Source of the DNA: Dyella psychrodurans
GTDB lineage: Bacteria > Pseudomonadota > Gammaproteobacteria > Xanthomonadales > Rhodanobacteraceae
Assembly (NCBI RefSeq): GCF_003363265.1
Contig: NZ_QRBF01000005.1
Span: forward strand, 252,571-316,570
Direction: 5' to 3'
DNA: 64,000 nucleotides
The notes below the pieces were generated by a model. It was not told the DNA's origin and made no database searches. It saw nothing but the letters and a program-made list of their open reading frames with translations. Position 1 is the first letter of the stretch. Each line of letters begins with the position of its first letter. Made by a program: the position numbers and the translations under genes. This document shows positions 8,551-36,578 of the stretch, piece by piece.

Positions 8551-8587
8551 CTCTTTCCCTCAAATCGTTTATCGAATGCTCTGCCCA

Positions 8588-17450: not shown

Positions 17451-17517
17451 TCGCCATCGTTCTGGCCTAAAAAGCAACGAGTTACCATTTCGCCGCGTCG
17501 GGAAAAGGGGTTAGCGT

Positions 17518-17776
17518 CTGAGGTTTCCCCGCATTTTTGCTCGTCATCCCGGCGCAGGCCGGAAGCGCTTCACAACAGCGAAGCTGGTCATCCAATGAAA
17601 TAAGCGTGCGCAGCACACTGGAAAGCTTTTCAGTTGTTGAGTGCTTCGCACCGTTATTCAAAATGGATCCCGGCCTGCGCCGGGATGACGAGTAAAAAAA
17701 GCATGTGGCATGCCGTTCTAAATCCATCCCCTGTTTTGTGGGCGATTTTCGGTCGCAAAACGTGGGGAAACCTCAG
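17518..17776. mobile_element. MITE-like element with terminal inverted repeats and family A repeats inside
   Basis: The ends are inverted copies: CTGAGGTTTCCCC at 17518-17530 and GGGGAAACCTCAG at 17764-17776, with the similarity continuing inward (GCATTTTTGC against GCAAAACGT). Inside lie a family A repeat (17541-17595) and an inverted copy of its core (17663-17691). There is no coding capacity. No clear target-site duplication was seen, so its status as a transposable MITE is inference. Confidence 0.55.
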
Positions 17777-17831
17777 GGTCAGAGTGCGTTGTTGAATAGG
17801 TAAAACTACGCACTCACCTTTTTGCCGCTCG

Positions 17832-18855: not shown

Positions 18856-19327
18856 CTCTCGCAAGATTGTTGGGTGGTCAGCCAAACCAACGATTCACCA
18901 AGAACTTGTCTTGGACGCTGTTACCAAGGCTGTACGTCATCGCCGACCTCGCCACACGTTGATCCATTCGGATCAAGGAACGCAGTATGGTAGCAACGCG
19001 TGGAGACGCTTCTGCAAGGCAAATCATCTTGAGCCGAGCATGAGTCGCCGAGGAAACTGTTGGGATAACCCCGTCGCCGAGTCCTTCTTCGGAAGCCCAA
19101 AGAAAGAGCGCATCAAGAAACGAATTTACGCCAATCGCGACGCTGACGTTGCGGAAATTTCTGAGCACATCGATGAGCTTTACAATCGAACACGCCGCCA
19201 CAGCTATCTAGGCGTCATCAGTCCTGAGTAGTTCGAGGCAACGCACAACGCTCTCGATCGCGTGCCCACTAAATCCTGGGAACTCCATTTCGGGCCCAAC
19301 CAGGCGCGTCATCAGCACACACACTGA
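18853..19327 (+). pseudogene. IS3 family transposase OrfB, 3' fragment
   Basis: It starts abruptly inside the integrase core (LSRKIVGWSA) and retains the second catalytic Asp (HSDQGTQYGS) and the Glu (GNCWDNPVAESFF), but the first Asp and the whole OrfA/N-terminal part are missing. A TAG at 19229 interrupts the frame after YLGVISPE; the same frame continues to a TGA at 19325. It is fused tail-on to the truncated IS5 gene, so one element inserted into or recombined with the other. It forms the left border of the biosynthetic cluster. Confidence 0.85.
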
Positions 19328-19473: not shown

Positions 19474-19557
19474 ATGGGATTCATAGCCAAACGCGGCGTT
19501 CCTACAACGACAGGTGGTCGCGTGCTCGCATTCAGTGAAATGACTGCAACGGTGTAA
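19474..19557 (+). CDS. Short ORF (27 aa) at the head of the biosynthetic cluster
   Basis: ATG at 19474 is preceded by AGGAG with 7-nt spacing, an excellent ribosome-binding site. The peptide begins MGFIAKRGVPTTTGGRVL and continues for nine more residues (ending in EMTATV) before TAA at 19555. It has no membrane segment. It lies 46 nt before the first enzyme gene on the same strand and downstream of the IS3 debris. It could be a leader peptide controlling the operon, a precursor or scaffold peptide, or a chance ORF. No family recognised. It is kept because of the ribosome-binding site and position. Confidence 0.4.
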   Translation: MGFIAKRGVPTTTGGRVLAFSEMTATV

Positions 19558-19602
19558 CTCGTAAATAACGTGATCTTCTTTCTGAGGCATATGAGGCCGT
19601 TT

Positions 19603-20694
19603 ATGAGCAATGTCAGGGTTGGACTTGTTGGAATAGGCGCACAATCACAAGAGAATCTGTTGCCTTCGCTGCTTCAAACTCCTGATATTCACGTGGTTGC
19701 TGTGTGCGATGGAGTCGCCGAGCGTGCGCGACTCGTGCATCGGCATGTCAAGGATGTCGAGCTGTACGACGACGTCGCCAAGATGCTTACCGATACGAAA
19801 CTGGATGCCTTGGTCGTGGCGTGTCCACCCCAGGCGCATCGAGATATCGCCACGCTGGCGATGAATCGTGGCGTGCATGTCTTTGTCGAGAAGCCGCCGT
19901 GCTTCACGCTCAATGAGCTTTTGTCGCTGACTGAACTTTCGCGCCAGTCGGGGCTAGTCACCGGCGTGGGGATGAATTTTCGATTCGCGAGGTCGATTCA
20001 GCATCTGCGGCTGATCCAGAATGAGCCGCAATTCGGTCGGACGGCCCATATCCAGCTGAATCACTACGCGAACAAGCCAAGGGCGCCAATGTGGGGCCTG
20101 GATTCCACGCTTCGCTCGTTCCTGCTGGCGCAGGCCATCCACACCATTGATTTGGCCATGCTCTTTGGCGGTGACGTCAAGGAAACGCGATCGGAAGTGC
20201 AGAATGACAATGGCAGCTTGATCGTCGAGATCAACATCTCTTTCAAGAATGGTGCAACGGCGTCAATCCTCACTGGAACGATGTTCCCTTACTTCGAATT
20301 CGAAATGAAGTTGATCAGCGATACGTCGACGATGGTTCGCCTTGACAACCTGTCGGATATCACGTTGCACGAGCCCGACCATGTTACCCGCGCGGGTGGC
20401 AACGATAAACGTTGGCGCGGCTATTGGCGCCCTGGACCGCTGGACTCAGGCTACGTGCGAAGCGGCTATCAGAGTGAACTGCAGGATTTCTTTGACGCCA
20501 TTCGAACCGGTGGCAAGTTCGAAGCGGACTTCGCCAACCTTATTCCTACCTACGAAGTCATCGAGCAGGTGTGCGAGAAGGGCGATCGGCTGGCAGCGGA
20601 GGTTGCCATCGACACGCTGAATCTCCTCCAGGGCCACAAGCCAAGCCTGCAAGCATCGGATCTCGGACAAGGCAAGGTGAGCGCTAATGTCTAG
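19603..20694 (+). CDS. Gfo/Idh/MocA family NAD(P)-dependent dehydrogenase
   Basis: 363 residues. A Rossmann N-terminus (VRVGLVGIGAQSQENLLPSL) and the hallmark EKPP near residues 96-99 (VHVFVEKPPCF, matching the EKP motif whose Lys acts in catalysis) identify the family. Its members oxidise or reduce sugar, cyclitol or amino-sugar hydroxyls with NAD(P). A downstream DegT aminotransferase would act naturally on the keto product. ATG 19603 has GAGG about 6 nt upstream; ATGs at 19591 and 19570 are in frame but leave a non-Rossmann extension. First enzyme of a same-strand run; its 3' end overlaps the next gene by 8 nt. Confidence 0.85.
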   Translation: MSNVRVGLVGIGAQSQENLLPSLLQTPDIHVVAVCDGVAERARLVHRHVKDVELYDDVAKMLTDTKLDALVVACPPQAHRDIATLAMNRGVHVFVEKPPCFTLNELLSLTELSRQSGLVTGVGMNFRFARSIQHLRLIQNEPQFGRTAHIQLNHYANKPRAPMWGLDSTLRSFLLAQAIHTIDLAMLFGGDVKETRSEVQNDNGSLIVEINISFKNGATASILTGTMFPYFEFEMKLISDTSTMVRLDNLSDITLHEPDHVTRAGGNDKRWRGYWRPGPLDSGYVRSGYQSELQDFFDAIRTGGKFEADFANLIPTYEVIEQVCEKGDRLAAEVAIDTLNLLQGHKPSLQASDLGQGKVSANV

Positions 20695-21793
20695 TCGCAG
20701 TGAAATCTCGCATCGAGTGATCTCTGACAAATATCGGCCGGTTTACGAAGGGGATATGCCGGCCATTCTCGAAGGACTGGCAGGTAGCCTGTCTGGCACC
20801 AGCGACATCGTTACGGAATATGAGCAAGCCCTGGCGGCCTGGTTCGACAGCCGTCACGCGGTCGCCGTCTCGTCCGGCGCAGCGGCGATCAGCGTTGCCC
20901 TGGGCACGCTTGGCGTCAAGCCCGGCGACGAAGTCGTGCTGACTCCCACGTGCCCGCTTTGCACCGTCTATCCGGTGATGAGTGCCGGCGCCAGGCCCGT
21001 GTTTGTCGACACCCGCCCACATGGTTTTGGCGTGGATCTGTCAGATCTTGCCAAAGTAATTACACCACGCACGAAGGCCATCATCGATATTCCCATGTGG
21101 GGTTATCCGACCGAGGTCGACGAGCTGCAAGCAGTAGCGCGTGGCCGCAGTATTCCGCTGATCCTGGATCTTGCTCACTCCCATGGTAGCAAGCTTAACA
21201 GCAAGCACTTGTCGCACTACGCAGATCTGTCCTGCTTCAGCACGCATGAGCGCAAACCGCTGGCGACGGGAGAAGGCGGTTTCATCCTGACGGACAATCT
21301 CGAGCTGGCCGATCGCTGCAGAAGCTACAGCCGGTTTGGCCACCTCAACGGCAAAGACTTCGGACTCAATTACAAGCTTGCCGCGTTATCGAGCTGCCTG
21401 GGCCGGAGCCGTCTGGAGCATCTCGAACGACAGATCGAAGCCCGGCGCCGCAACGCGCATTACATCGTCTCGCGGATTACCCATCCGAAGGTGAGCGAGA
21501 AGCAGATCATCGCCGACAGCAGCCCGAACTACTACTTCCTGAACCTGAGCCTCAGCCTCCGCGACAACCGGAAATTCATCGATTATCTGGACGAAAACGG
21601 TATTCCATCCGACATCAAGCGCTATGGATGCCGCTGCCTTTACGAATTTCCAGCGGTGGCAGCCTATGCAAGGCAGTGCCCGAACGGCGAGCGTCTGCTC
21701 AATAGCATGACGACGGTTCCCGTTCATCCTGATCTCAAGGATGACGATCTGAGCTACATCGTTGAGTTGATCAACGACTACTCGGAAGACTGA
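20687..21793 (+). CDS. DegT/DnrJ/EryC1/StrS-type aminotransferase (first copy)
   Basis: 368 residues with the fold type I pattern of sugar aminotransferases: VSSGAAAISVAL (phosphate-binding), ARPVFVDTRP, LILDLAHSHG with Asp161 for the pyridine nitrogen, and CFSTHERKPLATGEGG with Lys190 as the PLP lysine. The usual active-site string is SFHATKNLTTGEGG, so this is divergent. Such enzymes transaminate keto sugars or cyclitols, using Glu or Gln. The upstream dehydrogenase could make the ketone. It overlaps that gene and is followed 7 nt later by a Nudix gene. The protein is shaped as an active enzyme; the substrate is unknown. Confidence 0.85.
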   Translation: MSSRSEISHRVISDKYRPVYEGDMPAILEGLAGSLSGTSDIVTEYEQALAAWFDSRHAVAVSSGAAAISVALGTLGVKPGDEVVLTPTCPLCTVYPVMSAGARPVFVDTRPHGFGVDLSDLAKVITPRTKAIIDIPMWGYPTEVDELQAVARGRSIPLILDLAHSHGSKLNSKHLSHYADLSCFSTHERKPLATGEGGFILTDNLELADRCRSYSRFGHLNGKDFGLNYKLAALSSCLGRSRLEHLERQIEARRRNAHYIVSRITHPKVSEKQIIADSSPNYYFLNLSLSLRDNRKFIDYLDENGIPSDIKRYGCRCLYEFPAVAAYARQCPNGERLLNSMTTVPVHPDLKDDDLSYIVELINDYSED

Positions 21794-21800
21794 TCACCAA

Positions 21801-22307
21801 ATGTCCACCAAGCCACATCTCAAAAAACATTTCACGGCATCGGCCTTCGTCCTGAAGGCCGAGCGGCAAGTCTTTCTCCTGAGGCATAAGAAGCTTGGAG
21901 TGTGGCTGTACCCCGGCGGCCATATCGAAGCGGATGAAACGCCGGATGCCGCGGTGTTGCGGGAGGTGCTTGAAGAAACAGGCCTCGTTGCCACATTCCT
22001 CGATGCCAGGGACAGGAAGCTCGACGACGAGGCCGCCGATGTGGCGGCGCTGCATGTTCCTTACCGGATTCTCTGCGAGTTCATAAACGATCCCAAAGAC
22101 CCTCACTATCACATCGATCTCATCTACCTGTGTGGAGTGAAAGACCATGCCGACGAAAGCCGCGTGGGCAACACCGGGATGGGCTTCTTCGATGAGGCGG
22201 CCCTGGAAGGCCTAGCGCTCTTTCCGAATTTTCGCGCGCTGGTCAAAGGCGTCTTCAGGGACGATGCCATTTGGCAACGCGTGGACGAAAAGGTGGCGCC
22301 CCTATGA
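21801..22307 (+). CDS. Nudix hydrolase
   Basis: 168 residues with a perfect Nudix box: G40 ... E46 ... R54-E55 ... E58-E59 ... G61, in PGGHIEADETPDAAVLREV then LEETGL. Nudix enzymes cleave nucleoside diphosphates linked to another group X, using Mg2+ held by the REUxEE glutamates. In this operon it could cut an NDP-sugar or nucleotide intermediate to a phosphate, or clean up. The start overlaps nothing; its TGA overlaps the next ATG (ATGA at 22304). It is unlike the second Nudix protein of the cluster (27491). Confidence 0.85.
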   Translation: MSTKPHLKKHFTASAFVLKAERQVFLLRHKKLGVWLYPGGHIEADETPDAAVLREVLEETGLVATFLDARDRKLDDEAADVAALHVPYRILCEFINDPKDPHYHIDLIYLCGVKDHADESRVGNTGMGFFDEAALEGLALFPNFRALVKGVFRDDAIWQRVDEKVAPL

Positions 22308-23437
22308 GCAAGGTCATGACGGGTGACTCCGGATTTCGGGCGGTCGCCGAGCTGTGCAGCCATCGCCAGCCGAGTGATATTGATTACCTGGAGCGCGCGC
22401 TGGCGACGGGGCTGACGGGAACCTCGCTTATCGTGCTCGAATTTGAACAGGCGATTACCGCCATTTATGGTGTGCCGCATGTGGTGGCCGTCTCCTCGGG
22501 AGCGGCCGCGGTGATGGCCGCACTCAAAGGATTCGACTGGTCGCCGGGACAGGAGGTCATTGTTTCTCCCACTTGTCCCATCTGCACGGTGCTGCCGTTG
22601 CTGGAGCATGGGCTGGTGCCGGTGTTCTGCGACGTCAGGCCGAACAGCTTCGGTTTGTGCCCTGATGATTTGGCTCGCCTGATATCGCCCAAGACGTGCG
22701 TGATTATCGAAGTGCCGATGTGGGGGTATCCGGTTGCCGTCGATGAGACCCAACGTATCGCCGCCGAGCATCGCATCCCCCTGGTGCTGGACCTGGCTCA
22801 CGCACACATGGCCAGTCTTCGCGGACGATATCTGGCCCACTATGGCGACGTGGCTTGTTTCAGCACGCATGACTGCAAGTTCATGTCCACCGGCGAAGGT
22901 GGCTTCGTGATGTCGCAGCATGAGGCAGTCGCATCACGCGTCAGGTCCTACACACGGTTTGGCAATCTCGACGGCAAGAGCCCCGGCATCAACTTGAAAA
23001 TGGGCGGCCTGCAGGCAGCGCTCGGCGTAGCGCGCGCGCCGTTGTTGAAACAGCACTTGGCGATCCGCCAGGGCCACCGGCAGAAGCTCAAGGCATTGCT
23101 CGACAACGCCCACTTCCGTGAGCTGCCTGTCACACCAGGTGGCAGCCCCAGTGGCTATGCATTGTTGCTGCAGGCGATTGGACACGACGGCCGCGATTTG
23201 GTTCGCCATCAGGTCAGCCATGGAATCCCTTCTGATATCCGTAAGTACGACAATCGACCTTTGTACGAGTATCCGTTGCTGGCGAAGTACAGCCGGCATT
23301 GCCCCAACGCGACGTCGCTGTTGAGGTCACTGACTACAATCCCATTGCATCCGGACTTGTGCGAGGACGACCTCGTCCACATCGCACACGTACTCAACCG
23401 CTATCGGCCGGAAAGTATCGAACATGCGTACGCCTAA
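22304..23437 (+). CDS. DegT/DnrJ/EryC1/StrS-type aminotransferase (second copy)
   Basis: 377 residues with the same layout as the first copy: VSSGAAAVMAALKG, VPVFCDVRPNSFG, LVLDLAHAHMAS with Asp163, and CFSTHDCKFMSTGEGG with Lys192. Shared odd features (PT-C-P-x-CTV before the second strand, PMWGYPxxVDE) show that both copies belong to one subfamily, but the overall divergence indicates an old duplication and probably different substrates, or a heterodimer. ATG 22304 overlaps the Nudix stop. The end overlaps the FAD gene by 14 nt. Two paralogous aminotransferases suggest a product with two amino groups or two sugar units. Confidence 0.85.
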   Translation: MSKVMTGDSGFRAVAELCSHRQPSDIDYLERALATGLTGTSLIVLEFEQAITAIYGVPHVVAVSSGAAAVMAALKGFDWSPGQEVIVSPTCPICTVLPLLEHGLVPVFCDVRPNSFGLCPDDLARLISPKTCVIIEVPMWGYPVAVDETQRIAAEHRIPLVLDLAHAHMASLRGRYLAHYGDVACFSTHDCKFMSTGEGGFVMSQHEAVASRVRSYTRFGNLDGKSPGINLKMGGLQAALGVARAPLLKQHLAIRQGHRQKLKALLDNAHFRELPVTPGGSPSGYALLLQAIGHDGRDLVRHQVSHGIPSDIRKYDNRPLYEYPLLAKYSRHCPNATSLLRSLTTIPLHPDLCEDDLVHIAHVLNRYRPESIEHAYA

Positions 23438-24773
23438 GACGGCCATCGTCATAGGCGGCAACATGATGGGCTGTCTCGCCGCCGAAGTGCTTTCCAAGCA
23501 TCTTGATCGCGTGCTTGTGATTGAAAAGGGTGACTTCGACGACGAAACCGGGTATCGCAAGAGCGTTCCCCAGGAGCACCATGTTCATTTGCTGCTGCTG
23601 CGCGGCAAGCAGATCTTTGAAAACATCTTTCCTGGCTTCCTGGATGAGCTTGGTGAAGCGGGGGCCGAAATTGCGGATCTGGGCCACGACGTCAAGTGGT
23701 ACCAATACGGCCGCTGGAAAAACCGCTACAAGACCGGCATCAGCGCGCACTACTGCAGCCGACGCCTGATCGACAACGTTGTCCGCAAGCGGGTGCGCTC
23801 CAACGAGAAAGTGAAGGTCATCTCGTACGCAACGACGTATGGACTGTGCTACGACGGTACGCGGGTGAGTGGTGTCAAGCTGCGCGTCGGTGGCAGCGAG
23901 CATGAGGAATTCGCTGACCTTGTGGTCGACGCCAGCGGTCGCGGCTCGCGGTCTTCCGAGTGGATCGGCGAGTTCTGCGGCGACAAGGAGTGCGTCCAGC
24001 AGGACCTGGTGGAAACCCGTCTGGGTTATGCGTCGCGCATCTACCGCAGGGATCCGAAATATCGGGATCTGTGGAAAGTACTGCTGGTCCTGCCCAAGCC
24101 GCCGCAACAGCGCTGCATGGGTGTGATCAGCCCGATCGAAGGAGATCGGTGGCTGGTCACCACGGGCGGCTGGTTTGGTCATTACCCCAAGCCGAACCCA
24201 GAGCAGTTCCTGGACTATCTCGGCCAGCTTCCTGTGCCCGACATCTACGAGATCATCCGGCAAGCCGAGCCGCTTTCCGATGTCTTCGGCTTCGGCATGC
24301 CCGGCAGTCTGCGCCGTCGTTTCGACTTGCTCACGCGGTGGCCCGAGGGCTATTTCGTGCTTGGCGACGCGCTGTACAGCCTCAATCCCCTATACAGCCA
24401 GGGCATGACGTTGTGCGCCCTGGAAGCGAACTGTTTCCGCAAGATGCTGGGCGGTTTTCTGGCCGGAAGGATCAGCGCGCACGAGATCCAGAAAGAAGTG
24501 AGCAAGGTGGTGGAGCCTGCCTGGAACATGGCGACCGAGGAAGATCTCCGGTTTCCGGAAACCATCGGGCATCGGACGCCCGCTGTTCGTCTGCGCCACT
24601 GGTATGGCATGGGCATAGGGCGGCTTTCGGCCAAGCATCGCTTGGCGCTGAAGACGCAGATCGGTGTCACCAACCTAGTCACGCCGTCTGGCCAGCTATT
24701 CCGCCCGGAGATCGTCGGCGGGGTGCTGCTCGACAAACTGACGATGTTCAAGCGCAGCAAGGAGTGGCTATGA
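23424..24773 (+). CDS. FAD-dependent oxidoreductase (monooxygenase/reductase type)
   Basis: 449 residues. The N-terminal FAD-binding motif reads VIGGNMMGCLAAEVL followed by RVLVIEKG; the second glycine of GxGxxG is Asn here. A later GDALYSLNPLYSQGMTL is the second FAD motif (GDA...P..GQG) of the group A flavin monooxygenase/geranylgeranyl reductase superfamily; Ser-Gln-Gly replaces Gly-Gln-Gly. The C-terminal 100 residues are basic. Possible roles are hydroxylation, desaturation or oxidation of the pathway intermediate. Its stop overlaps the next ATG (ATGA at 24770). The exact reaction cannot be told. Confidence 0.8.
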   Translation: MRTPKTAIVIGGNMMGCLAAEVLSKHLDRVLVIEKGDFDDETGYRKSVPQEHHVHLLLLRGKQIFENIFPGFLDELGEAGAEIADLGHDVKWYQYGRWKNRYKTGISAHYCSRRLIDNVVRKRVRSNEKVKVISYATTYGLCYDGTRVSGVKLRVGGSEHEEFADLVVDASGRGSRSSEWIGEFCGDKECVQQDLVETRLGYASRIYRRDPKYRDLWKVLLVLPKPPQQRCMGVISPIEGDRWLVTTGGWFGHYPKPNPEQFLDYLGQLPVPDIYEIIRQAEPLSDVFGFGMPGSLRRRFDLLTRWPEGYFVLGDALYSLNPLYSQGMTLCALEANCFRKMLGGFLAGRISAHEIQKEVSKVVEPAWNMATEEDLRFPETIGHRTPAVRLRHWYGMGIGRLSAKHRLALKTQIGVTNLVTPSGQLFRPEIVGGVLLDKLTMFKRSKEWL

Positions 24774-25465
24774 GACAGCTCCTGCTTGATGCGCAACATA
24801 TCGTCTTCGACTGGAATGGGACCCTGATCGACGACGTCGACCTGGCCGTCCGGGCGGTGAATCGGTGCTGCAACCTCTACGGGCTGAACGCCATCAGCCG
24901 TGACGAGTATCGCAGCAAGTTTCGTTTTCCGATCCGGGACTTTTACCGCGACCTAGGCTTCCAGGTGGAGAATCGACTCTTTGACGACGTCATCAAGAAC
25001 TATCTGAGCGTGTTCGATCGGAATGTCTTTCAGTGCGCCTTGTACGAGGGCACCGTGGCATTGTTGGAAAAGCTTCTTGACGAAGGGAAAATTTTGTCCA
25101 TTTTGTCAGCATCTCATCAATCCATTCTCACCGAAACCGTGGGCACTAAGGGGCTTGAGAGGTATTTCACGTACGTGGTCGGTCTTGGCGATAACCACGC
25201 GCGCGGAAAATTGGGAATCGCCCGAGAGCTACAGGATCGCTCAGGCGTCGCTACGCACAGGACCCTTTACATCGGCGATACCAACCACGATGCAGAAGTG
25301 GCCACGTCGATGGGGTGGTCCTTTTTGATGGTCAGGAGTGGCCATCAGACCAGGAGTGACAAGGGCAACGAAGCTGTCGACTCATTGCGGGAAATTCTTG
25401 TCCGCCTTCAAGAAAGCGAACATCCCGGCGCGCCCGGGCAACGTACAGGGGGGTTTGCGCCATGA
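24770..25465 (+). CDS. HAD superfamily hydrolase with Asn at D+2
   Basis: 231 residues. HAD motif I is VFDWNGTLIDD: the nucleophile Asp is present but the normal D+2 acid/base is Asn. Motif II is LSAS (residue Ser), motif III is a Lys in ARGKLG, and motif IV is YIGDTNHD with the expected acidic pair. A helical cap follows motif I (C1 type). Phosphonatases lack the D+2 acid as well (Ala there), so the reaction may be other than simple phosphatase. Coupled to both neighbours by 4-nt overlaps, so it is an integral part of the operon. Confidence 0.8.
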   Translation: MRQLLLDAQHIVFDWNGTLIDDVDLAVRAVNRCCNLYGLNAISRDEYRSKFRFPIRDFYRDLGFQVENRLFDDVIKNYLSVFDRNVFQCALYEGTVALLEKLLDEGKILSILSASHQSILTETVGTKGLERYFTYVVGLGDNHARGKLGIARELQDRSGVATHRTLYIGDTNHDAEVATSMGWSFLMVRSGHQTRSDKGNEAVDSLREILVRLQESEHPGAPGQRTGGFAP

Positions 25466-26589
25466 CACCGTCGACGACGTACGTGATGGAGGTGATCGGC
25501 AAGCTTGTGGCGATCGACATCGCCTTGCGGCTGATTACCTGGGCCTACTATGCGGATGAGGAGCGCGTGCTGCAGATCCTGAACCTGCTGCCGCGGCCAA
25601 AGGGACCAAGGATGCCGTACTACAAGCGATTCGACGCGGTGCTCGCACCGCTTCCTTTCTTGTGGACCTGGATCGAAATTTTTTTGATGGTATGGCTGGC
25701 CAACCATTTCGATCATGCCATCGTCTGGGGGCTGGCCATCGTGATCATCGGCGGCCGGTTCAGGGCGCTGCAGGAGTTCGGCCACAATGCCGTGCATTTC
25801 GCGCTGTGCAAGTCGCATGCATGGCAATGGTTCTTGTCGGATTACTTTTATCAGTTTCCGGCTTTCAAGCGGGACATGCATAGCCGGCACGTCACCCATA
25901 CTCGCGAGCACCACAAGAACCCGAACCATATCTCCCTTGATCCGAACCGAGCAAGGGTCCGGGACGGTGGCATGGCTTATCCGCTGACCGAGCGGCAATT
26001 TTACGCGCGCTTGCTCTATCCCCTGACACCCGGAGGGTTGAAGGTGAACATCACCACCATGCTTCGCAACAGCACACTCAACCACAGCAAGGCGACAACG
26101 ATGATCCGCTGCATCTGCCTGCTGCAGCTTGCGTTGACGTTCTTTCTGCTGGCCGGATGGAAGGGCATCGTGCTTGGTTGGTTCGCTCCGCTGTTCACCA
26201 CTTATGCGCTGCTCGCCTGGCTTGCACTGCTGGCCGAGCACCGCTGGTTCGTGAGCGGGAGCTTCGAGAATCGGCGCGAACTCGAATACCTGGCAGGCAG
26301 ACCCACCGACTACTGCGGCTTCAGCGGCTGGATGGTCCGCATCCTGGTAAGCCCTACCTCGGATGCCTACCACCTTGCGCATTCCTTGTATCCGGGCGTT
26401 CGCTGGAATTACCTGCCGGCGATAGACAGGATTCTCAAGATTACCGACTCCCGCTACACCGCCCACGCCAGCGAAGGTTTGATCTTTTCCAAACATGGCG
26501 CGCCATCCGCCCTGTCAGAGCTGCGCGACCGGTTGGTCATCCGTGAGTTGGAACAACACTCTTCTGGCGTGCAGGGAATTGGTGGATGA
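25462..26589 (+). CDS. Membrane fatty-acid-desaturase-like protein
   Basis: 375 residues with several hydrophobic helices and three histidine boxes of the di-iron desaturase/hydroxylase family: EFGHNAVH (HxxxH), HVTHTREHHKN (HxxxHH) and YHLAHSLYP (HxxH). These acidic and His ligands hold two irons in the membrane-embedded active site and use O2. In Bradyrhizobium a homologous enzyme, RtxC, desaturates dihydrorhizobitoxine, a small amino acid derivative, so a small polar substrate is plausible here too. Overlaps both neighbours by 4 nt. Confidence 0.8.
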   Translation: MTPSTTYVMEVIGKLVAIDIALRLITWAYYADEERVLQILNLLPRPKGPRMPYYKRFDAVLAPLPFLWTWIEIFLMVWLANHFDHAIVWGLAIVIIGGRFRALQEFGHNAVHFALCKSHAWQWFLSDYFYQFPAFKRDMHSRHVTHTREHHKNPNHISLDPNRARVRDGGMAYPLTERQFYARLLYPLTPGGLKVNITTMLRNSTLNHSKATTMIRCICLLQLALTFFLLAGWKGIVLGWFAPLFTTYALLAWLALLAEHRWFVSGSFENRRELEYLAGRPTDYCGFSGWMVRILVSPTSDAYHLAHSLYPGVRWNYLPAIDRILKITDSRYTAHASEGLIFSKHGAPSALSELRDRLVIRELEQHSSGVQGIGG

Positions 26590-27476
26590 GCTTACAGGGC
26601 AAGCAGCATAGTATCGGTGTCATTGGCGGAAGCGGCCTGCAAGGCTTGCAGGGGCTTGCGCACGTCGAACACATCGAGATCAAGACGCCGTACAGCGACA
26701 CGCCGGTCAACATCACGACCGGACAGCTCGGTGATGTTCATGTCGCTTTTCTGCAACGACATGGAGTGGGGCATCGCGTGCCTCCGGCATCGATCAATGT
26801 CCGGGCGAACATGGCGGCCCTCAAGCACATCGGCTGCCGGCAAGTGTTGTCGCTGAGTGCGGTCGGCAGCCTGGATGAAAACGTCGCGCCTGGGACCTTT
26901 GTGGTCGTCGACCAATTTATCGACCGCACGATCCAACGGCAAAAAACCTACTTCGGTCCCGGCCTGGTGGGACATGTGCCGTTCGGCGACCCGACCTGCG
27001 CGCGCATGCGCGATGCACTGATCAACGTCTCGCGCGAAAAGGCGCTTGCCTTGCGCACCAGCGGCACCTACGTGGTGATGGAGGGGCCGCAGTTTTCGAC
27101 CAAGGCGGAATCGAACCTGTATCGTCAATGGGGTGGCACCATCATCGGCATGACGGGCATGCCCGAGGCCAAGCTCGCCCGCGAGGCGGAAATGTGCTAC
27201 GCGATGGTGGCCATGGCCACCGACTACGATTGTTGGTTCTCCGGCGAACCGCCGGTGACGGCAAGCATGATCAGCGAGCGCATGGCTAAGATCAGCGCCA
27301 GCGCCAATGCGCTGGTCGCGGACGCGACAACCTATCTGTCCGGCGTCAATGGGGAGGACTGCCAGTGCGGCTGCCATCGCGCGCTGGATACGGCCATCAT
27401 GACAGCACCGGCGCATCGCGATCCAGAGATGCTTTCGCGCTTTGAATTCGTCGTTTCAAGAATCCGCCAGATCTAA
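26586..27476 (+). CDS. mtnP: S-methyl-5'-thioadenosine phosphorylase-like protein
   Basis: 296 residues. GVIGGSGLQGLQGL at the start, FLQRHGVGHRVPPASINVRANM, and MTGMPEAKLAREAEMCYAMVAMATDYDCW near 199-227 are characteristic of MTA phosphorylase / purine nucleoside phosphorylase II. MTAP cleaves MTA to adenine and methylthioribose-1-phosphate. MTA arises when SAM donates its aminocarboxypropyl or aminopropyl group, so one pathway step may use SAM in that way, or the enzyme may act on another nucleoside. The C-terminus has a Cys-rich CQCGCH run. Overlaps the previous gene by 4 nt. Confidence 0.85.
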   Translation: MSLQGKQHSIGVIGGSGLQGLQGLAHVEHIEIKTPYSDTPVNITTGQLGDVHVAFLQRHGVGHRVPPASINVRANMAALKHIGCRQVLSLSAVGSLDENVAPGTFVVVDQFIDRTIQRQKTYFGPGLVGHVPFGDPTCARMRDALINVSREKALALRTSGTYVVMEGPQFSTKAESNLYRQWGGTIIGMTGMPEAKLAREAEMCYAMVAMATDYDCWFSGEPPVTASMISERMAKISASANALVADATTYLSGVNGEDCQCGCHRALDTAIMTAPAHRDPEMLSRFEFVVSRIRQI

Positions 27477-27490
27477 AGAGGGAGGTTGGA

Positions 27491-28066
27491 GTGAGTGAGC
27501 GAATTCGCAACATCAAAGAACAGCTGTTATCAGATAACTGGTACGTCCTAAAAAAAGCCACGTTTGACTTCCAACGGCGGAACGGCACCTGGGAAACAAC
27601 GAGCCGAGAGGCCTACGACCGCGGCAACGGCGCCACCATCCTTCTGTACAACACGACGCGTAATGGCGTCATTCTCACCAGACAGTTCCGTTATCCGACG
27701 TTTGTAAATGGCAACCTAGATGGGATGCTTATCGAGGCCTGTGCGGGATTGCTCGACAATGACGATCCGGAAACCTGTATCCGGCGGGAAACCGAGGAAG
27801 AAACCGGCTACATCATAGACAGCGTGCGCAAGGTCTTTGAAGCGTACATGAGTCCGGGATCGGTCACGGAAAAGCTATTCTTTTTCGTTGGTGAATATTC
27901 CGAACGGAACCAGACGAGCGACGGAGGCGGCGTAGACAGCGAAGATATCGAAGTGTTGGAGCTCGACTTTGCGCAGGCCATGGCCATGGTCGAAGGCGGC
28001 GAAATCCGCGACGGCAAGACCATCATGTTGCTTCAATACGCAAAGCTGGCGGGGCTGCTGAAATGA
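27491..28066 (+). CDS. nudK: NudK-like Nudix hydrolase (GDP-mannose pyrophosphatase type)
   Basis: 191 residues that follow E. coli NudK closely: ILSDNWY-like start (LLSDNWYVLKKATFDF), EAYDRGNGATILLYNTTRNG, LTRQFRYPT, LIEACAGLLDNDDPE, IRRETEEETGY, MSPGSVTEKLFFFVGEYS, EDIEVLELDFAQA, EIRDGKTIMLLQYA. NudK cleaves GDP-mannose and other NDP-sugars to sugar-1-phosphate and NMP. Here it could process an NDP-sugar of the pathway. GGGAGG lies about 8 nt upstream of GTG/ATG start context at 27491. The stop overlaps the next start by 4 nt. Confidence 0.85.
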   Translation: MSERIRNIKEQLLSDNWYVLKKATFDFQRRNGTWETTSREAYDRGNGATILLYNTTRNGVILTRQFRYPTFVNGNLDGMLIEACAGLLDNDDPETCIRRETEEETGYIIDSVRKVFEAYMSPGSVTEKLFFFVGEYSERNQTSDGGGVDSEDIEVLELDFAQAMAMVEGGEIRDGKTIMLLQYAKLAGLLK

Positions 28067-29004
28067 CCCATGCCGGCGCCGACGATACGCTTGTCGCCTA
28101 CAGCTCGATGGAAGATGGCGAGCTTGCCGACTATGTGAGCCAGATAGAGCGGGATAACCCGGACCTCCACATCAAGGTGATCCGGGTGTCCACGGCTGCG
28201 CTGCACGAGCGCATTCTTCAGGAAGGCGATGCAGGGCAATGGGACATCATTTTCGGGTGGTCACTGACCAAGTTGCTCGACCCGATGATTCAGACCTTGC
28301 TGGCCACCTTCGACAGCGCGCAGCTGGATCGCCTGCCTCGGGAGGCACGGGACGAGGGCGGCAAGTGGTTCAGCCCGTCGGCGTTTGTGCCGGCGTTCTG
28401 TGTCAACGAAGCCAGGCTGAAAGAGAAAGGATTGCCTGTGCCGCGAAACTGGAATGAGCTCGCCGAATCGTACTACGGTGGCGAGATCGTGTTACCGGAT
28501 CCCGCCTACTCGGGCGCGGGATTCCTGCATGTGACGGCGTTGAACCAGAAGTCCGGCTCGGCGTATGTGGACTCGGTGTTCCGGCGTGTTGCCAATAGCA
28601 GGCCACGCGTGGTCAGGTCAGCGTTCGAGCCTTGCTCGGCCGTTCTCAATGGCGAAGCGGCCATTGGCGTCACGGTGTCTACCGCCGTATGCGGCCTGAT
28701 GAATCAAGGTGTCGATGTGCGCATGGTGATTCCCTCCGATGCGGCTGCCTTCGAGCCGGAAAGTTTTGCCATCAGGGCGGGATCAAGGCACCTGTCACAG
28801 GCACAGCGCGCACTGGATTGGACGATGAGTTCCGCCGCCTGCGAAACCTACGGCCGGTATGGCAAGGTGGTGCTGAAGGACATCGATATACGCAGTCCTG
28901 AGGATGGCGATCCGCGCTTCCCTGCGATGACGGCGATCAATGCCGCCAAGGCCAACCAGGACCGTGACGCGATGTGCTCGGCATGGTCAAGGTTTTTCAA
29001 TTGA
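28063..29004 (+). CDS. Solute-binding-protein fold (SBP family 1) without a signal peptide
   Basis: 313 residues. The pattern DTLVAYSSMEDGELADYVSQ, then VSTAALHERIL, IIFGWSL, ALVPAFCVNE-like FVPAFCVNEARLKEKGLPVP and WNELAESYYGGEIVLPDPAYSGAG is that of periplasmic iron(III), thiamine or 2-aminoethylphosphonate-binding proteins. But the protein begins MTHAGADDTLVAYS, with no signal peptide or lipobox, and no ABC permease or ATPase is nearby. It therefore acts in the cytoplasm, perhaps as an enzyme, a carrier of an intermediate or a sensor. The same fold has been recruited as an enzyme elsewhere (for example in thiamine and menaquinone pathways). ATGA overlap with the previous gene. Confidence 0.75.
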   Translation: MTHAGADDTLVAYSSMEDGELADYVSQIERDNPDLHIKVIRVSTAALHERILQEGDAGQWDIIFGWSLTKLLDPMIQTLLATFDSAQLDRLPREARDEGGKWFSPSAFVPAFCVNEARLKEKGLPVPRNWNELAESYYGGEIVLPDPAYSGAGFLHVTALNQKSGSAYVDSVFRRVANSRPRVVRSAFEPCSAVLNGEAAIGVTVSTAVCGLMNQGVDVRMVIPSDAAAFEPESFAIRAGSRHLSQAQRALDWTMSSAACETYGRYGKVVLKDIDIRSPEDGDPRFPAMTAINAAKANQDRDAMCSAWSRFFN

Positions 29005-29048
29005 ACAGGGCGCGTTCGCGCCGTTTTGCTGACTGAAGGTGGTTATCT

Positions 29049-29792
29049 ATGTCTCGGAAAAAACCTACTGCGACGCTACTTTTCGATCTTGATGGAACCC
29101 TGGTCGATACGGATGCCCTTCATCTGAAGGCATACAACACACTCCTTCAAACATTCGACCGGCACATAGATGAGGACTATTACAAGACCTACGTGATGGG
29201 CTTTTCCAACGACGAGATCATGCGCAAACTGTTCCCTGCCGAGAGCAGCAGCAAGCACACTCAGTACGCCAACCAAAAAGAGGAGATCGTCCGCTCCCTG
29301 TTTACCGATCTCACGCCGGCTCCTGGATTGCTGGAACTGCTGCAGCGTGCGGAGCTGTTCTGCTGCCGCATCGCGGTGGTGACCAATGCTCCGCGACAGA
29401 ACGCGGAGCTGCTGCTGAGCGGACTCGGGTTGCGAGACCGATTCAAAACGGTCGTCCTCGGCGAGGAGCTTACCCATGGCAAACCGCACCCGCTGCCGTA
29501 TTTGACTGCCCTGGAGCTTCTGGGCGCGCGCGCGGAAAGTGCTTTTGCCTTCGAGGATTCCTACTCGGGCGTAAAATCGGCGTCCTCCGCGGGCCTGCGA
29601 ACCTTCGGCCTGCTGACGTCACTGCCGGAGTCGAAGTTACTTGAAGCCGGTGCGGTGCGCGCGATAAGGAATTTCCTCGATCCGACCATGCGCGCCATGC
29701 TCTATCCGCTGTTTGATGTGGAAGCGCCGGAACTAGACGAATACATCTCCGCGGACAGGAAGGATCTGGCAGAAAGCGCGCATGACGACTGA
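29049..29792 (+). CDS. HAD superfamily phosphatase, beta-phosphoglucomutase-like
   Basis: 247 residues with canonical HAD motifs: FDLDGTLVDTDALHLKAY (DxDGT), VVTNAPRQNAELLL, GKPHPLPYLTAL with the motif III Lys, and FAFEDSYSGVKSASSAGL (motif IV). The CbbY/beta-PGM subgroup acts on sugar phosphates and related compounds. In the operon it may remove a phosphate from a sugar phosphate intermediate. Its end overlaps the MFS gene by 11 nt. Together with the Asn-variant HAD (24770) it makes two HAD proteins of distinct type in one cluster. Confidence 0.85.
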   Translation: MSRKKPTATLLFDLDGTLVDTDALHLKAYNTLLQTFDRHIDEDYYKTYVMGFSNDEIMRKLFPAESSSKHTQYANQKEEIVRSLFTDLTPAPGLLELLQRAELFCCRIAVVTNAPRQNAELLLSGLGLRDRFKTVVLGEELTHGKPHPLPYLTALELLGARAESAFAFEDSYSGVKSASSAGLRTFGLLTSLPESKLLEAGAVRAIRNFLDPTMRAMLYPLFDVEAPELDEYISADRKDLAESAHDD

Positions 29793-31017
29793 CCCTGGCC
29801 AGGTGCACGCAGGAAGCTTGCATGGTGCCGAGCGAATCGCGCTCTGGTCGGTGGTGGGAGCTTTTTGCGCATTCGGCATGATGTGGGGCATCTGTCACGT
29901 CGTGCTGGTCGATCTTCAAGAGGCGCTCAAGCTTTCCACTGGAGCACTGGGCGCGGCCATGACCTTCGGCGTGTCGACTTCGATCCCCAGCATGCTCATC
30001 AGCGGGCGTCTTGTCGATAAGCTCGGCCCGAGGGCGTTGATGGCCATGACGGCGCTGCTTCTGGCAGCCGGCCTGCTGTGCTTTGCACTGGCGAGAAACT
30101 ACGTGACGTTTTGTGCTGCGATGGCGATTCTTTATGGATCGTCCGGTGCATACGACGTAGCCATCAATGCCGCGGCCATCCATATCGAGCGCACCACCAA
30201 GCGACGAGTCATTGCTTATTTCCACGGTGCGTTCAGCGGCGTTGCTGCGATTTCGGGCCTGTCCGCCGGTTATCTGCTTTCCAGTGCCGTTCCCTTCCGG
30301 TGGATCTACATAGGGCTTGCCGTGCTCATGCTTGTGGTGAGCATACTGGTCACCAGCAACCCCGTGCTTGCGCATGCCAAGGTATCGCCGCCGAAGCCGG
30401 CTGGCGGAAACGTCAGTGCGATCAACCTGCTGCTGGTGCCGACGGTGCTGCTGGTCGCGGCGATTACCACCTTGAGCTTCCTGTCGGAGAACGCGCTCCA
30501 GACCTGGTCGAGCATCTATTTGCGCATTTCGCTTGGCGTTCCTGTGCTGATCGGATCGATCGCGCCGGCCGGCGTATACGCAGCCATGTCGCTCGGGCGC
30601 TTTATTACCGGATATGTCGTGACGCGTCTTGGCAGGTGCGCGTTGCTGCGTATCTCCGGTGTACTTACCGCGCTGGGCATGGTCATCGCGCTGTCCAGTA
30701 CGATTCCATGGATCGTGATTGCCGGCTTCCTGTTCTGTGGCGTGGCCCAGTCAGGCCTCGCGCCGGTGGCCTATTCGATCGGTGGCGACGTTGCGCCGGA
30801 CAAGGCCGGGCAGGTGACGTCGATCATTACAACCATCAGTTACACGGGCTTTCTGAGCGGTCCTGCACTCATCGGTGGGTTGGCCGAGCTTTACGGATTG
30901 AGGTTTGCGTTCGGCTTGGTGATCGTGGGCGGCGTTCTCATCTCGATACTGGCGCTTTACATCAAGGAGCCAAAGCCAGTGCAGGAAAGCCTGCCCAGCT
31001 ACGCGCTCGAATCCTGA
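29782..31017 (+). CDS. MFS transporter, probable exporter of the pathway product
   Basis: 411 residues, 12 hydrophobic helices. The loop after helix 2 has GRLVDKLGPRAL, the MFS motif A type, and the Arg/Lys-rich stretch THRRVIAY (after helix 5) and loop 8-9 GYVVTRLGRCALL match the second half repeat. The protein is of the general MFS_1 type; in a biosynthetic operon it is most likely an efflux or self-resistance pump, although import of a precursor cannot be excluded. Coupled to the upstream HAD gene by overlap. Confidence 0.8.
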   Translation: MTTDPGQVHAGSLHGAERIALWSVVGAFCAFGMMWGICHVVLVDLQEALKLSTGALGAAMTFGVSTSIPSMLISGRLVDKLGPRALMAMTALLLAAGLLCFALARNYVTFCAAMAILYGSSGAYDVAINAAAIHIERTTKRRVIAYFHGAFSGVAAISGLSAGYLLSSAVPFRWIYIGLAVLMLVVSILVTSNPVLAHAKVSPPKPAGGNVSAINLLLVPTVLLVAAITTLSFLSENALQTWSSIYLRISLGVPVLIGSIAPAGVYAAMSLGRFITGYVVTRLGRCALLRISGVLTALGMVIALSSTIPWIVIAGFLFCGVAQSGLAPVAYSIGGDVAPDKAGQVTSIITTISYTGFLSGPALIGGLAELYGLRFAFGLVIVGGVLISILALYIKEPKPVQESLPSYALES

Positions 31018-31138
31018 TGGCCGGAGGAGCAGGGCTCGACACGCCGATGCCTCGTTCACCACGTGATCGTGGAACGCTGAGACGCTCATCGCTTTGTCTG
31101 GTTATTCATCGTCAATGATTGTTGCCGGTAGGTCCTCG

Positions 31139-32659
31139 ATGTCATCCATCACGGAAGTCAGCCTTCGCTCTGCACCATTTGACTGCTTTTCGAGCCTGAT
31201 CGGGCCCGGTGGCGCGCGCGAGCTCACGGAGCTCGCAAAGCGCGCCTCGGGTCAGTTACATGGCCGGACGTGGTGGCATATCAATTCAACTTCGCGCGGC
31301 GGCGGCGTGGCGGAAATGCTGCAGTCGCAGCTGGCATATGCGCGCGGACTGGGCATCCATACGCGTTGGCTCGTGCTTGGCGGACATGCGGATTTCTTCA
31401 AGATCACCAAGCGCATGCACCATGCTTTTCACGGTGCGCTTGGCGATGGATCCGACCTGGGAGAAAAAGAACAGGCCATCTACGACGCAACGCTCAAGGA
31501 AAACATTCTGCAACTTCTCCCCCTCATCAAGCCCGGGGACATTGTGCTTCTGCACGACCCGCAGAGCGCGGGGCTGGCGCCGGCACTGGTCAAGCACGGG
31601 GCCACGGTTCTCTGGCGCAGCCACATCGGCGCTGATGTAGTGAATGAACATACGGATCTGGCGTGGCATTTCGTCGGGCATTACCTGAGGCACGTTTTTG
31701 CAACGGTGTTTTCCAGGAAGGAGTACATCCCGGAGTTTCTAAAGTCGCAACGCAGCTTTGTCATTACGCCTTCCATCGACGCGTTCTCACCCAAGAATCA
31801 GAATATGGATGAGAAAACGGTCAAATCCATCCTTGTCCATACCGGCTTGATACGTGGCGAAGCATGGGCGGAAGTGTTGCCGCGCTTCACGCGAGAAGAC
31901 GGGACGCCGGCGCTGGTCACATCCAAAGCCGACATCGTGCGTGAGGGTACGGCTCCAGGCTGGGAGACGCCACTGATCGTGCAGGTGTCGCGCTGGGACC
32001 CGCTTAAGGATCCGGTCGGAGTCATTCGTGGGTTCGTCAATCTTATCCTCCGCGTTGTTTCCGTCGACGCTCATTTGGCGCTGGTGGGGCCTGATGTCAC
32101 ATCGGTTACGGATGATCCGGAAGGGCGTGCCGTACTCGACAGCGTGATCGGCGCCTGGAAGGTGTTGCCCGCACCTATCAGGCAGCGCATTCATCTCGTG
32201 TCCTTGCCGATGGAGGACCGCGAGGAAAATGCCGCTATCGTCAACGCCATACAGCGACACGCCGCGATCATCGTGCAAAAGAGTCTGAAGGAAGGCTTCG
32301 GCCTTACCGTGACCGAAGCCATGTGGAAAGGACGTCCGGTGGTGGCGAGTGCCGTTGGCGGCATCCAGGACCAGATTGTTCATGGCCAGCACGGACTATT
32401 GCTGACCGATCCCCATGACGAGCTCGCCTTTAGCGAAGCACTCGAGAAGCTTAGCCATGACCAATGTCTGGCGACACGGCTGGGGGTTCAGGCGACAGAG
32501 CGCGTGCGCGACCTGTTCCTGACCTCCTATCACCTCGAGCAGTACGCCCGCGTCCTGGACGCGATTGATTCGGCGCAAGAGGTTCAGGTGCCGGCCAACG
32601 TGGCAAACCATCCTTTGCGAGAAGTCGCGGATGAAATGCGGTCGCCGGTCAATGGATGA
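31139..32659 (+). CDS. GT4 glycosyltransferase, trehalose synthase (TreT)-like
   Basis: About 506 residues in a GT-B fold. The N-terminal half has NSTSRGGGVAEMLQSQLAYA and RWLVLGGHADFFKITKRMHH, the C-terminal half VSRWDPLKDPVGVIRGF, QKSLKEGFGLTVTEAMWKG and RPVVASAVGGI. The EGFGLTVTEA string is the E-x7-E nucleotide-sugar motif of retaining GT4 enzymes. TreT-type enzymes join an NDP-glucose to glucose to make trehalose; the SRGGGVAEML motif is typical of that group. With an aminosugar acceptor or donor it would give a trehalose-like amino disaccharide; this is inference. ATG 31139 is chosen as the start with weak ribosome-binding context; ATG 31115 is an alternative. Last gene of the cluster. 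Confidence 0.75.
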   Translation: MSSITEVSLRSAPFDCFSSLIGPGGARELTELAKRASGQLHGRTWWHINSTSRGGGVAEMLQSQLAYARGLGIHTRWLVLGGHADFFKITKRMHHAFHGALGDGSDLGEKEQAIYDATLKENILQLLPLIKPGDIVLLHDPQSAGLAPALVKHGATVLWRSHIGADVVNEHTDLAWHFVGHYLRHVFATVFSRKEYIPEFLKSQRSFVITPSIDAFSPKNQNMDEKTVKSILVHTGLIRGEAWAEVLPRFTREDGTPALVTSKADIVREGTAPGWETPLIVQVSRWDPLKDPVGVIRGFVNLILRVVSVDAHLALVGPDVTSVTDDPEGRAVLDSVIGAWKVLPAPIRQRIHLVSLPMEDREENAAIVNAIQRHAAIIVQKSLKEGFGLTVTEAMWKGRPVVASAVGGIQDQIVHGQHGLLLTDPHDELAFSEALEKLSHDQCLATRLGVQATERVRDLFLTSYHLEQYARVLDAIDSAQEVQVPANVANHPLREVADEMRSPVNG

Positions 32660-32749
32660 GTGGCGCGCATAACTTGGGCGCGCCATGGGGGAAATGGATT
32701 CGGCCGACATACCTTTAGACGTCCAGCTAGTTAGTCAGGTTCTTGTCGG

Positions 32750-33391
32750 GTGGGGCGCCGCTTCATGTTGGTGCGACAAGCCGTGCAACTCATGCTTTCC
32801 ATCCAACCGAGCTTTAGCCGCACGACCGGCCGGCAGCTGTCGAGCAAAGCCATTCGCCGGATCACCTCCACGCAACTGGAAGCCGCCTTTCCCGATACCA
32901 CCACGCGCTACGGCACGCTCATACAACTGAAGCTTTGGCTCACCTTGCAGGATCACATTGCCGAACTGGAACGTTGGGTTCGACAGGATCTGGCGCGACC
33001 GGATCTGCTGAAGCGATTGCAAAGCGTACCCGGCATAGGTCCCATCCTCGGCATGACGATCCTGCTGGAAACCGGTGCGATCGAACGCTTCGCTTCCGTC
33101 GGCGACTACGCCTCCTACTGCCGCATGGTCGAGAGCGTGCGTCTGTCCAATGGCAAACGGAAGGGCCATGGCAACCGCAAGTGCGGCAATCGCTACCTGT
33201 GCTGGGCGTTTGTGGAAGCGGCCAACTATGCCACCCGCTACCAGCCCGCCATACGTCGCTGGTACGAGCGCAAGCGCGCACGCAAACACCGCGTGGTGGC
33301 CATCAAGGCGGTGGGCCACAAACTCGCACGGGCTTGCTATTACATGCTGCGTGAGGGCACGACGTTCGATCCCGGTCGAGCTTTTCAATGA
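32750..33391 (+). pseudogene. IS110 family transposase, C-terminal fragment
   Basis: The 213 residues include the Transposase_20 domain: LQSVPGIGPILGMTILLETG, VGDYASYCRMVESVRLSNGK and HGNRKCGNRYLCWAFVEAAN. The N-terminal DEDD catalytic domain (about 150 residues) is missing, so the fragment is inactive. It lies about 90 bp after the glycosyltransferase gene and marks the right border of the biosynthetic cluster. Confidence 0.85.
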
Positions 33392-36006: not shown

Positions 36007-36142
36007 CGAAGTCCGGTGTCTATGGTTGATCAACATCGATGAAATCGCTTCGGCGGATCGGTGTAGTCGAAATTTTTTGGGGCGGCAGTGCCAACAGCGC
36101 TTGAAGCTTCACATAGTGTGCTTCGCACGGTTTATTAGATGA

Positions 36143-36577: not shown

Positions 36578-36578
36578 A

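Follow-up and report, generated by a model that had tools for sequence, protein, structure and literature searches.

A block of 13 genes in the genome of Dyella psychrodurans was found to be a conserved unit that has moved horizontally between distantly related bacteria. We tentatively read it, with less than even confidence, as a mobile biosynthetic operon that would start from a purine nucleotide, with ATP as the simplest case, and yield a small exported amino-sugar metabolite by puromycin-like chemistry. The block lies in a stretch of 64,000 nucleotides (the window), which covers positions 252571 to 316570 of contig NZ_QRBF01000005.1 in an assembly of 4.54 Mb and 16 contigs. Its gene content, conservation, co-transfer, purifying selection, and family placement were observed directly.

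Gene content, inheritance, and spread of the unit

All 13 open reading frames (ORFs) were intact and lay on the plus strand between 19603 and 32659. Ten of the 12 junctions were tight, with overlaps of 4 to 14 nt or gaps of 7 to 14 nt, as an initial annotation of the sequence had described. Looser junctions separated the substrate-binding protein (SBP) gene from HAD2 (44 nt) and the major facilitator superfamily (MFS) gene from the family 4 glycosyltransferase (GT4) gene, where the gap was 76 nt if GT4 starts at TTG 31094 and 97 nt if it starts at ATG 31115. For DegT2, the most probable start codon is ATG 22304, which gives a 4-nt overlap with Nudix1. The Pfam and NCBIfam labels (GFO_IDH_MocA, two DegT, two NUDIX, FA_desaturase, PNP_UDP_1 for the methylthioadenosine [MTA] phosphorylase [MTAP], SBP, two HAD_2, MFS, and TreT_GT1 plus GT4) agreed with the families assigned initially; for the flavin (FAD) protein, the only Pfam match was DAO, below cut-off, and its profile matched MonCI/LasC. 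No polyketide synthase (PKS), nonribosomal peptide synthetase (NRPS), phosphoenolpyruvate mutase, or methyltransferase family, all of which the initial annotation had likewise noted as absent, and no S-adenosylmethionine (SAM)-using family able to release MTA occurred among the matches of the 13 proteins.

In a second species of the genus (G473), all 13 genes were found in the same order, GT4 included, and two DNA matches of 94.3% and 95.1% identity jointly spanned window positions 19539 to 32671. The rest of the 32-kb G473 stretch gave no further match to the window at E 1e-20. The block first delimited as 19474 to 32659 is therefore real, with its left edge drawn slightly too far out. Pairwise dN/dS values (NG86) between the window and G473 were 0.05 to 0.23 for all 13 genes, and the unit's genes are thus under purifying selection. 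In a third species (G471), the left flank matched up to 17492 (96%) and the right flank from 33955 (88%); the flank ends lay about 2.2 kb apart with repeat copies between them, compared with 16.5 kb in the window, so that the site is nearly empty. Transposase ORFs stand on either side of the unit in the window. Because of the G473 match edges, the near-empty G471 site, and the flanking transposase ORFs, the whole unit, including GT4, was most likely gained as a single block.

The cluster is rare outside these lineages. The desaturase was found at E 1e-40 in 2 of 233 genomes of the family (the window's own and G473); in random samples, Gfo was found at E 1e-50 in 1 of 369 genomes of the class and the desaturase at E 1e-20 in 1 of 398 genomes of the phylum, in both cases the window's own. 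Four Mycetohabitans megaplasmids carry relatives of Gfo (57 to 63% identity) and of the desaturase (59 to 61%). Both of the two Mycetohabitans loci examined have the order Gfo-DegT1-Nudix1-DegT2-FAD-HAD1-desaturase-MTAP-NudK-SBP, followed by MFS-HAD2, swapped relative to the window, and relatives of 11 of the 13 window proteins, all but MFS and GT4, were detected there by tblastn (E 1e-8). The co-occurrence of Gfo, both DegTs, the FAD protein, HAD, and the desaturase in these loci bears out the view that this is a genuine conserved gene set. A rearranged version with an additional third DegT-like protein and GalE was found on Pantoea ananatis PNA 97-1R plasmid NZ_CP020945.2; tblastn at the same threshold detected relatives of 10 of the 13 proteins, with DegT1 and DegT2 finding their best match in one and the same gene, and the Pantoea Nudix protein aligned with the window Nudix at only 26%. 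Myxococcus vastator has a six-gene core, Gfo-DegT-Nudix plus DegT2-FAD-HAD1, and no relative of the desaturase, MTAP, NudK, SBP, HAD2, or GT4 was found at E 1e-8 in 20.7 kb of that locus. A scan of genome contigs with a Gfo profile gave at least 512 confirmed relatives; among the best 80, which were compared, Myxococcus vastator alone clearly belongs to the cluster type. A Microvirga locus was rejected as a member, fewer than 3 of the 13 window proteins being present.

Coordinates of the unit, its genes, and the adjoining transposase ORFs in the window
Feature	Coordinates	Strand	Remarks
Co-inherited unit	19539..32671	+	DNA match to sister species G473 begins and ends here
Gfo/Idh/MocA dehydrogenase (Gfo)	19603..20694	+	Putative Pur10-like role; EKP and IHxxD motifs present
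DegT1 aminotransferase	20687..21793	+	Lys190 present
Nudix hydrolase 1 (Nudix1)	21801..22307	+	Putative Pur7-like role; Nudix box intact by eye
DegT2 aminotransferase	22304..23437	+	DegT1 paralogue (43% identical)
FAD monooxygenase	23424..24773	+	MonCI/Lsd18(LasC) epoxidase family
HAD1 hydrolase	24770..25465	+	Motif I DWN, not DxD
Membrane di-iron desaturase/hydroxylase family	25462..26589	+	Distant relative of GntB (arginine hydroxylase); His boxes present by eye
MTA phosphorylase (MTAP)	26586..27476	+	Adenosine-type; genome's second MTAP-family copy
NudK-type Nudix hydrolase (NudK)	27491..28066	+	Above NCBIfam NudK cut-off
SBP fold	28063..29004	+	No visible signal peptide; AfuA/P5PA/PhnS2 branch
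HAD2 hydrolase	29049..29792	+	Beta-phosphoglucomutase/sugar phosphatase-like; canonical DLD motif
MFS exporter	29782..31017	+	
GT4 with TreT N-terminal domain	31094..32659	+	
DDE transposase ORF	17832..18542	-	Left of unit
rve-type transposase ORF	18842..19231	+	129 aa, partial; left of unit
IS110-type transposase ORF	32750..33391	+	213 aa, partial; right of unit

Other features were noted around the insertion site and in the related loci. A palindromic element at 17503 to 17783, with 29-nt arms that are 97% complementary, lies left of the insertion and has two matching places in G471. On the right, a second accessory gene adjoins the unit: a DUF4172-Fic protein gene (34876 to 36006), with no match in G471 and present in 3 of 16 genomes of the genus, its own counted. 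Between it and rpsI, at 36096 to 36604, short stretches match several places of locus L106 in either orientation and look like dispersed repeats. The Myxococcus core is followed by a stand-alone poly(A)-polymerase head domain protein (L010, 15518 to 16207) and by two ORFs that are MFS and HlyD-like by eye, and a divergent APH-type kinase (8510 to 9553, minus strand) lies upstream; the head domain protein and the kinase may serve conjugation or self-resistance in a related pathway. On a plasmid of Rhizobium sp. BT04 (L004:5029-16631), a Gfo-DegT-Nudix trio adjoins three GT2 glycosyltransferases, a His phosphatase, a nucleotidyltransferase, a HAD protein, and two MFS proteins, a candidate for a different, smaller cluster making an amino-nucleoside or glycoside. 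A Kitasatospora sp. NBC_00374 plasmid (L006:5957-20459) carries a Gfo-DegT pair with an APH kinase, a GT2, an AMP-binding protein, an acyl carrier protein, an Asn-synthase-like protein, a Nudix, and a HAD, which constitute another uncharacterized cluster.

A putative route from a purine nucleotide to an amino sugar

We infer the substrates, the step order, and the product by analogy with known systems, as follows. First, Gfo would oxidize the nucleotide 3'-OH, DegT1 would add an amine, and Nudix1 would take off pyrophosphate, by comparison with Pur10, Pur4, and Pur7 or with AdgB-D. HAD1 would then remove the last phosphate, and in a third step a second position would be oxidized and aminated by the MonCI-like FAD oxygenase, DegT2, and the di-iron hydroxylase. 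Fourth, the second MTA phosphorylase would cleave off adenine, yielding an amino(di)deoxyribose 1-phosphate, in the way that LipP acts on uracil in A-90289 biosynthesis. Finally, SBP and HAD2 would handle the phosphosugar, GT4 would glycosylate it in this genus, and MFS would export the product. A more specific version, in which ATP becomes a doubly aminated, oxygenated pentose of a new product class, possibly a cyclic iminosugar, with the pathway's MTAP discarding adenine and a cytosolic former transport protein chaperoning or transforming the reactive phosphosugar, is unlikely as it stands.

Two known systems come nearest. Pur10 belongs to the Gfo family and Pur4 to the DegT family, and Pur3 is inositol-monophosphatase-like. 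Passages of PMC9239236 and PMC11641026 describe a 3'-amino-3'-deoxynucleoside set in which puromycin pur10, pur4, pur7, and pur3 equal adgB-E, and state that Photorhabdus adgB-E expressed in E. coli gave 3'-amino-3'-deoxyguanosine (ADG). Like the Photorhabdus adg genes and the puromycin sub-cluster, as these passages present them, the unit is a compact operon with a Gfo-type dehydrogenase, an aminotransferase, a Nudix protein, a phosphatase, and an MFS protein. Its Gfo, DegT, and Nudix genes adjoin as in the puromycin/ADG set, with putative action on a nucleoside triphosphate, and beyond that set it adds DegT2, the MonCI-like FAD enzyme, the di-iron hydroxylase, MTAP, NudK, SBP, and GT4. The occurrence of Gfo-DegT-Nudix as a separate trio in Rhizobium sp. 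BT04 and within the six-gene Myxococcus core supports the first step. In the A-90289/muraymycin aminoribose route (LipL-LipO-LipP-LipM-LipN), according to parts of PMC4902027, LipO transaminates uridine 5'-aldehyde and LipP swaps uracil for phosphate, giving 5-amino-5-deoxyribose-1-phosphate. The proposed pathway would resemble that route in following nucleoside transamination with LipP-type release of an aminoribose phosphate, and the unit does contain a nucleoside phosphorylase, adenosine-type by model; it differs from that route in having an MTAP-type (adenine) phosphorylase and DegT aminotransferases.

Trees of the first two enzymes (22 rows for DegT, 28 for Gfo) unite the cluster with the Pantoea, Rhizobium, and Kitasatospora proteins. 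In the DegT tree, five DegT1 rows and five DegT2 rows (window, G473, Mycetohabitans, and Myxococcus) were split by a branch with support of 93/90 that occurred in 100% of 200 bootstrap trees, which suggests that the duplication predates the cluster's spread; the position of Myxococcus DegT2 in an unresolved fork weakens this reading. The cluster rows, two Pantoea rows, one Rhizobium row, and one Kitasatospora row stood apart from the remaining eight across a branch with 100/100 support, and the Gfo tree grouped the same organisms with 98/97. In a hidden Markov model search, cluster-type Gfos scored 404 to 600 bits and the best outsider (Kitasatospora) 149; of the seven high-scoring Gfos, only those of Myxococcus and G473 were absent from the profile. 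Over 327 residues, Gfo aligned with the solved structure 3m2t ("Probable dehydrogenase"; 454 bits), which we take to be from Chromobacterium violaceum, and its EKP and IHxxD motifs presumably have functional roles. Both DegTs should transaminate, because the catalytic lysine K190 is invariant in them.

The aminotransferases also bear on a serious rival, which we judge rather improbable: an NDP-hexose (nucleoside diphosphate hexose) route in which Gfo oxidizes C3, DegT1 and DegT2 aminate, the Nudix pair frees a sugar 1-phosphate, the HADs dephosphorylate, GT4 joins the product to another sugar, and MTAP merely salvages MTA. The best NCBIfam match of both DegTs was an NDP-sugar aminotransferase, far below cut-off (PseC, 157.5 and 128.7 bits against 423.5), and many of their PDB matches are NDP-sugar aminotransferases, the first for DegT1 being labeled glutamine--scyllo-inositol transaminase. 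Further points in favor of this rival are the second Nudix protein, which passes the NCBIfam NudK cut-off, GalE in the Pantoea version, and the use of NDP-glucose by TreT enzymes; against it stand the lack of an MTA-making SAM-using family among the 13 proteins, another MTAP-family gene in the genome, and the lack of an NDP-sugar-forming nucleotidyltransferase family in the unit.

The initial annotation had drawn an analogy to the Bacillus ntd genes and kanosamine, in which Gfo, DegT, and HAD would turn glucose 6-phosphate into 3-amino-3-deoxyglucose and GT4 would form an amino trehalose. The unit shares the Gfo, DegT, and HAD families with the ntd and rifamycin-type kanosamine genes, and a GT4 with a TreT N-terminal domain lies inside the co-inherited unit. 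This reading is nevertheless very unlikely, since NtdA was 22nd of the 59 PDB matches of DegT1, GT4 was not found in the loci of other lineages, and two Nudix proteins, MTAP, and SBP are left without a role; we know of no kanosamine-type pathway with an adjoining Nudix or MTAP gene. Controls for the 3-amino-5-hydroxybenzoate (AHBA) type were clearly separate: two of the eight outside DegT rows (L026 and L040), AHBA-type by their adjoining HADs (336.5 and 333.7 bits to TIGR01454, cut-off 246.65), fell beyond the 100/100 branch, and HAD2 reached 43.3 bits with that model and HAD1 was unlisted. The DegT tree and the HAD controls thus speak against AHBA/kanosamine identity of the rif type, and the analogy keeps its enzyme families and is weakened. 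Amino/sugar chemistry, as first proposed, is likely.

The phosphorylase of the putative fourth step is the new element of the nucleotide route. The window genome and G473 each have two MTAP-family genes, and the cluster MTAP shared 35.5% (242 residues) and 37.5% (208 residues) identity with the other copies. It scored 292.4 bits with the MTAP model TIGR01694 (cut-off 274.85) and 202.3 bits with the S-methyl-5'-thioinosine (MTI) phosphorylase model, below the cut-off of 223; the window genome's other copy scored best with the MTI model (379.6 bits). The motif D-Y/F-D-C-W, which we take to mark the adenine site, was present in all four aligned sequences; this alignment comprised the four cluster copies and left out the other genome copies (no ORF of at least 200 residues with DYDC). 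Because no SAM-dependent family, and hence no source of MTA, occurs among the 13 proteins, an additional adenosine-type phosphorylase would most simply serve to split a pathway nucleoside and release the base. Ordinary methionine salvage is less likely, given the other MTAP-family gene and the lack of an MTA-releasing family in the unit. The enzyme, initially viewed as tailoring, looks like a base-releasing step. In the cluster MTAPs (L002:24981-25892, L003:17485-18369, and window 26586-27476), the segment VPFG(D/E)P replaces VSMADP of three PDB relatives, a possible marker of changed substrate choice.

The two putative oxidizing enzymes of the third step, first taken as tailoring, both resemble oxygenases. 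A four-sequence profile of the FAD protein matched MonCI in the PDB at E 1e-76 over profile positions 10 to 429 of 447, which assigns it, by profile, to the MonCI/Lsd18(LasC) family of flavin monooxygenases; the unit differs from the setting of those epoxidases in having no polyketide genes. The closest model for the desaturase was the guanitoxin arginine hydroxylase GntB, and because its score of 109.2 bits falls below the cut-off of 380, the protein is placed by sequence as a distant GntB relative. Desaturase relatives on two actinomycete plasmids were discarded as cluster kin, as they adjoin dapF genes and not this gene set.

Binding protein, exporter, and glycosyltransferase

The SBP scored 165.4 bits with a 2-aminoethylphosphonate SBP model, below the cut-off of 392.75, and its nearest solved chains by profile were 8x1a (iron-compound-binding by name), AfuA (4r72/4r73), SfuA, P5PA (6wce), and more iron binders. 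Parts of PMC4546632 give hexose and heptose phosphates as the ligands of AfuA, and parts of PMC8427247 give pyridoxal 5'-phosphate (PLP) as that of P5PA. Mapped by hand on a printed alignment, with a numbering offset of 2 deduced from residue numbers in the papers, Thr44 (P5PA Thr37/AfuA Ser37), Ser150-Gly151, and Glu231 (AfuA Glu229) of the pocket were present. The SBP thus shares the fold and part of the phosphate pocket with AfuA, P5PA, and PhnS2, and differs from them in its lack of a visible signal peptide and of ATP-binding cassette (ABC) partners: no signal peptide was seen by eye in any of four aligned sequences (no predictor was run), and no ABC genes lay beside SBP in the window, the two Mycetohabitans loci, or the Pantoea locus. 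From its sequence relatives, we read it as a putative cytosolic protein whose ligand would be a phosphorylated amino sugar or PLP, with iron as an alternative.

These features also bear on whether the unit is instead a conserved operon that breaks down or salvages an exotic amino sugar or nucleoside, which appears very unlikely. Nudix, HAD, MTAP, and SBP proteins are common in salvage, and all four are present in the unit. Two plasmid relatives of SBP from outside this gene set are, unlike the cluster SBP, ordinary SBPs with ABC genes; furthermore, an exporter-type MFS, two aminotransferases, two oxygenases, rarity, and mobility suit a secondary metabolite better.

The MFS proteins beside the Mycetohabitans, Pantoea, and Myxococcus clusters shared only 20 to 23% identity with that of the window, and because of these low values the exporter has probably been replaced. 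GT4 matched the TreT N-terminal domain PF21269 with 135.8 bits and fell short of the NCBIfam TreT equivalog cut-off (217.7 against 775 bits). No GT4 relative was found by tblastn (E 1e-8) in the two Mycetohabitans loci or in those of Pantoea and Myxococcus, so that formation of a trehalose-like product would at most be a final step specific to the lineage. The trehalose-like disaccharide envisaged for GT4 in the initial annotation accordingly draws support from the domain and from membership of the unit in this genus, and not from the other lineages.

Weight of the evidence and significance

Several observations weigh against the nucleotide route. The puromycin link is an argument from family composition and gene order, not from a tree, and orthology is putative; no Pur10/Pur4/Pur7 or AdgB-D record was recognized among the 40 plasmid matches listed and the best 80 of at least 512 genome loci. 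Unlike the adg and puromycin sets, the unit has no Pur3-type phosphatase family and has HADs instead, and the phosphatase role of HAD1 is uncertain because DWN replaces DxD in motif I of all four aligned sequences. Neither family of the A-90289 pair, a LipM-like nucleotidylyltransferase and a 2-oxoglutarate oxygenase, occurs among the 13 proteins, the LipM-like enzyme being the absence that counts here. The second oxidation and amination is the least certain step; the place of the FAD enzyme in it is a guess, because known MonCI-like flavoenzymes act on alkenes, and no nucleoside context surrounded FAD relatives in four plasmid neighborhoods. The MTAP model also accepts the second MTAP-family gene of the window genome (283.3 against 274.85 bits), whose MTI label is thus based on the higher of two scores, and the cluster-type MTAP is missing from the Myxococcus core, which would put base release outside the common core. 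SBP lacks the counterparts of AfuA Thr150, His205, and Asp206, and its closest solved relatives include ferric-iron-binding proteins, with similar scores. NudK and the Pantoea GalE suit NDP-sugar chemistry as well. In the trees, Pantoea grouped with Rhizobium and Kitasatospora for DegT (91/91) and with Myxococcus for Gfo (83/69), and the long branches of Kitasatospora and Rhizobium may attract, making their placement unsure.

No published description of the cluster or its product was found in the open full-text literature, subscription papers and biosynthetic gene cluster databases being outside the scope of this search; to this extent the initial statement that no published cluster has this gene set stands. 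Going by parts of their descriptions, PNP-1 of Pantoea (PMC4010436) and the Pbo cluster (PMC8473136) were set aside because their gene sets differ, and the available portion of a review on the mining of purine N-nucleosides (PMC12648386) names neither puromycin nor Nudix, DegT, or phosphorylase.

The unit is a compact cluster free of PKS and NRPS genes. Apart from the window's genus, it occurs in one betaproteobacterium and one gammaproteobacterium, and a myxobacterium has its core; in our judgment this points to a type of metabolite that class-based genome mining may overlook. If the route from nucleotide to amino sugar is correct, puromycin-like chemistry would extend to free amino sugars, the MTAP family would gain a biosynthetic role in Gram-negative bacteria, and a former transport-protein fold would gain a cytosolic one.

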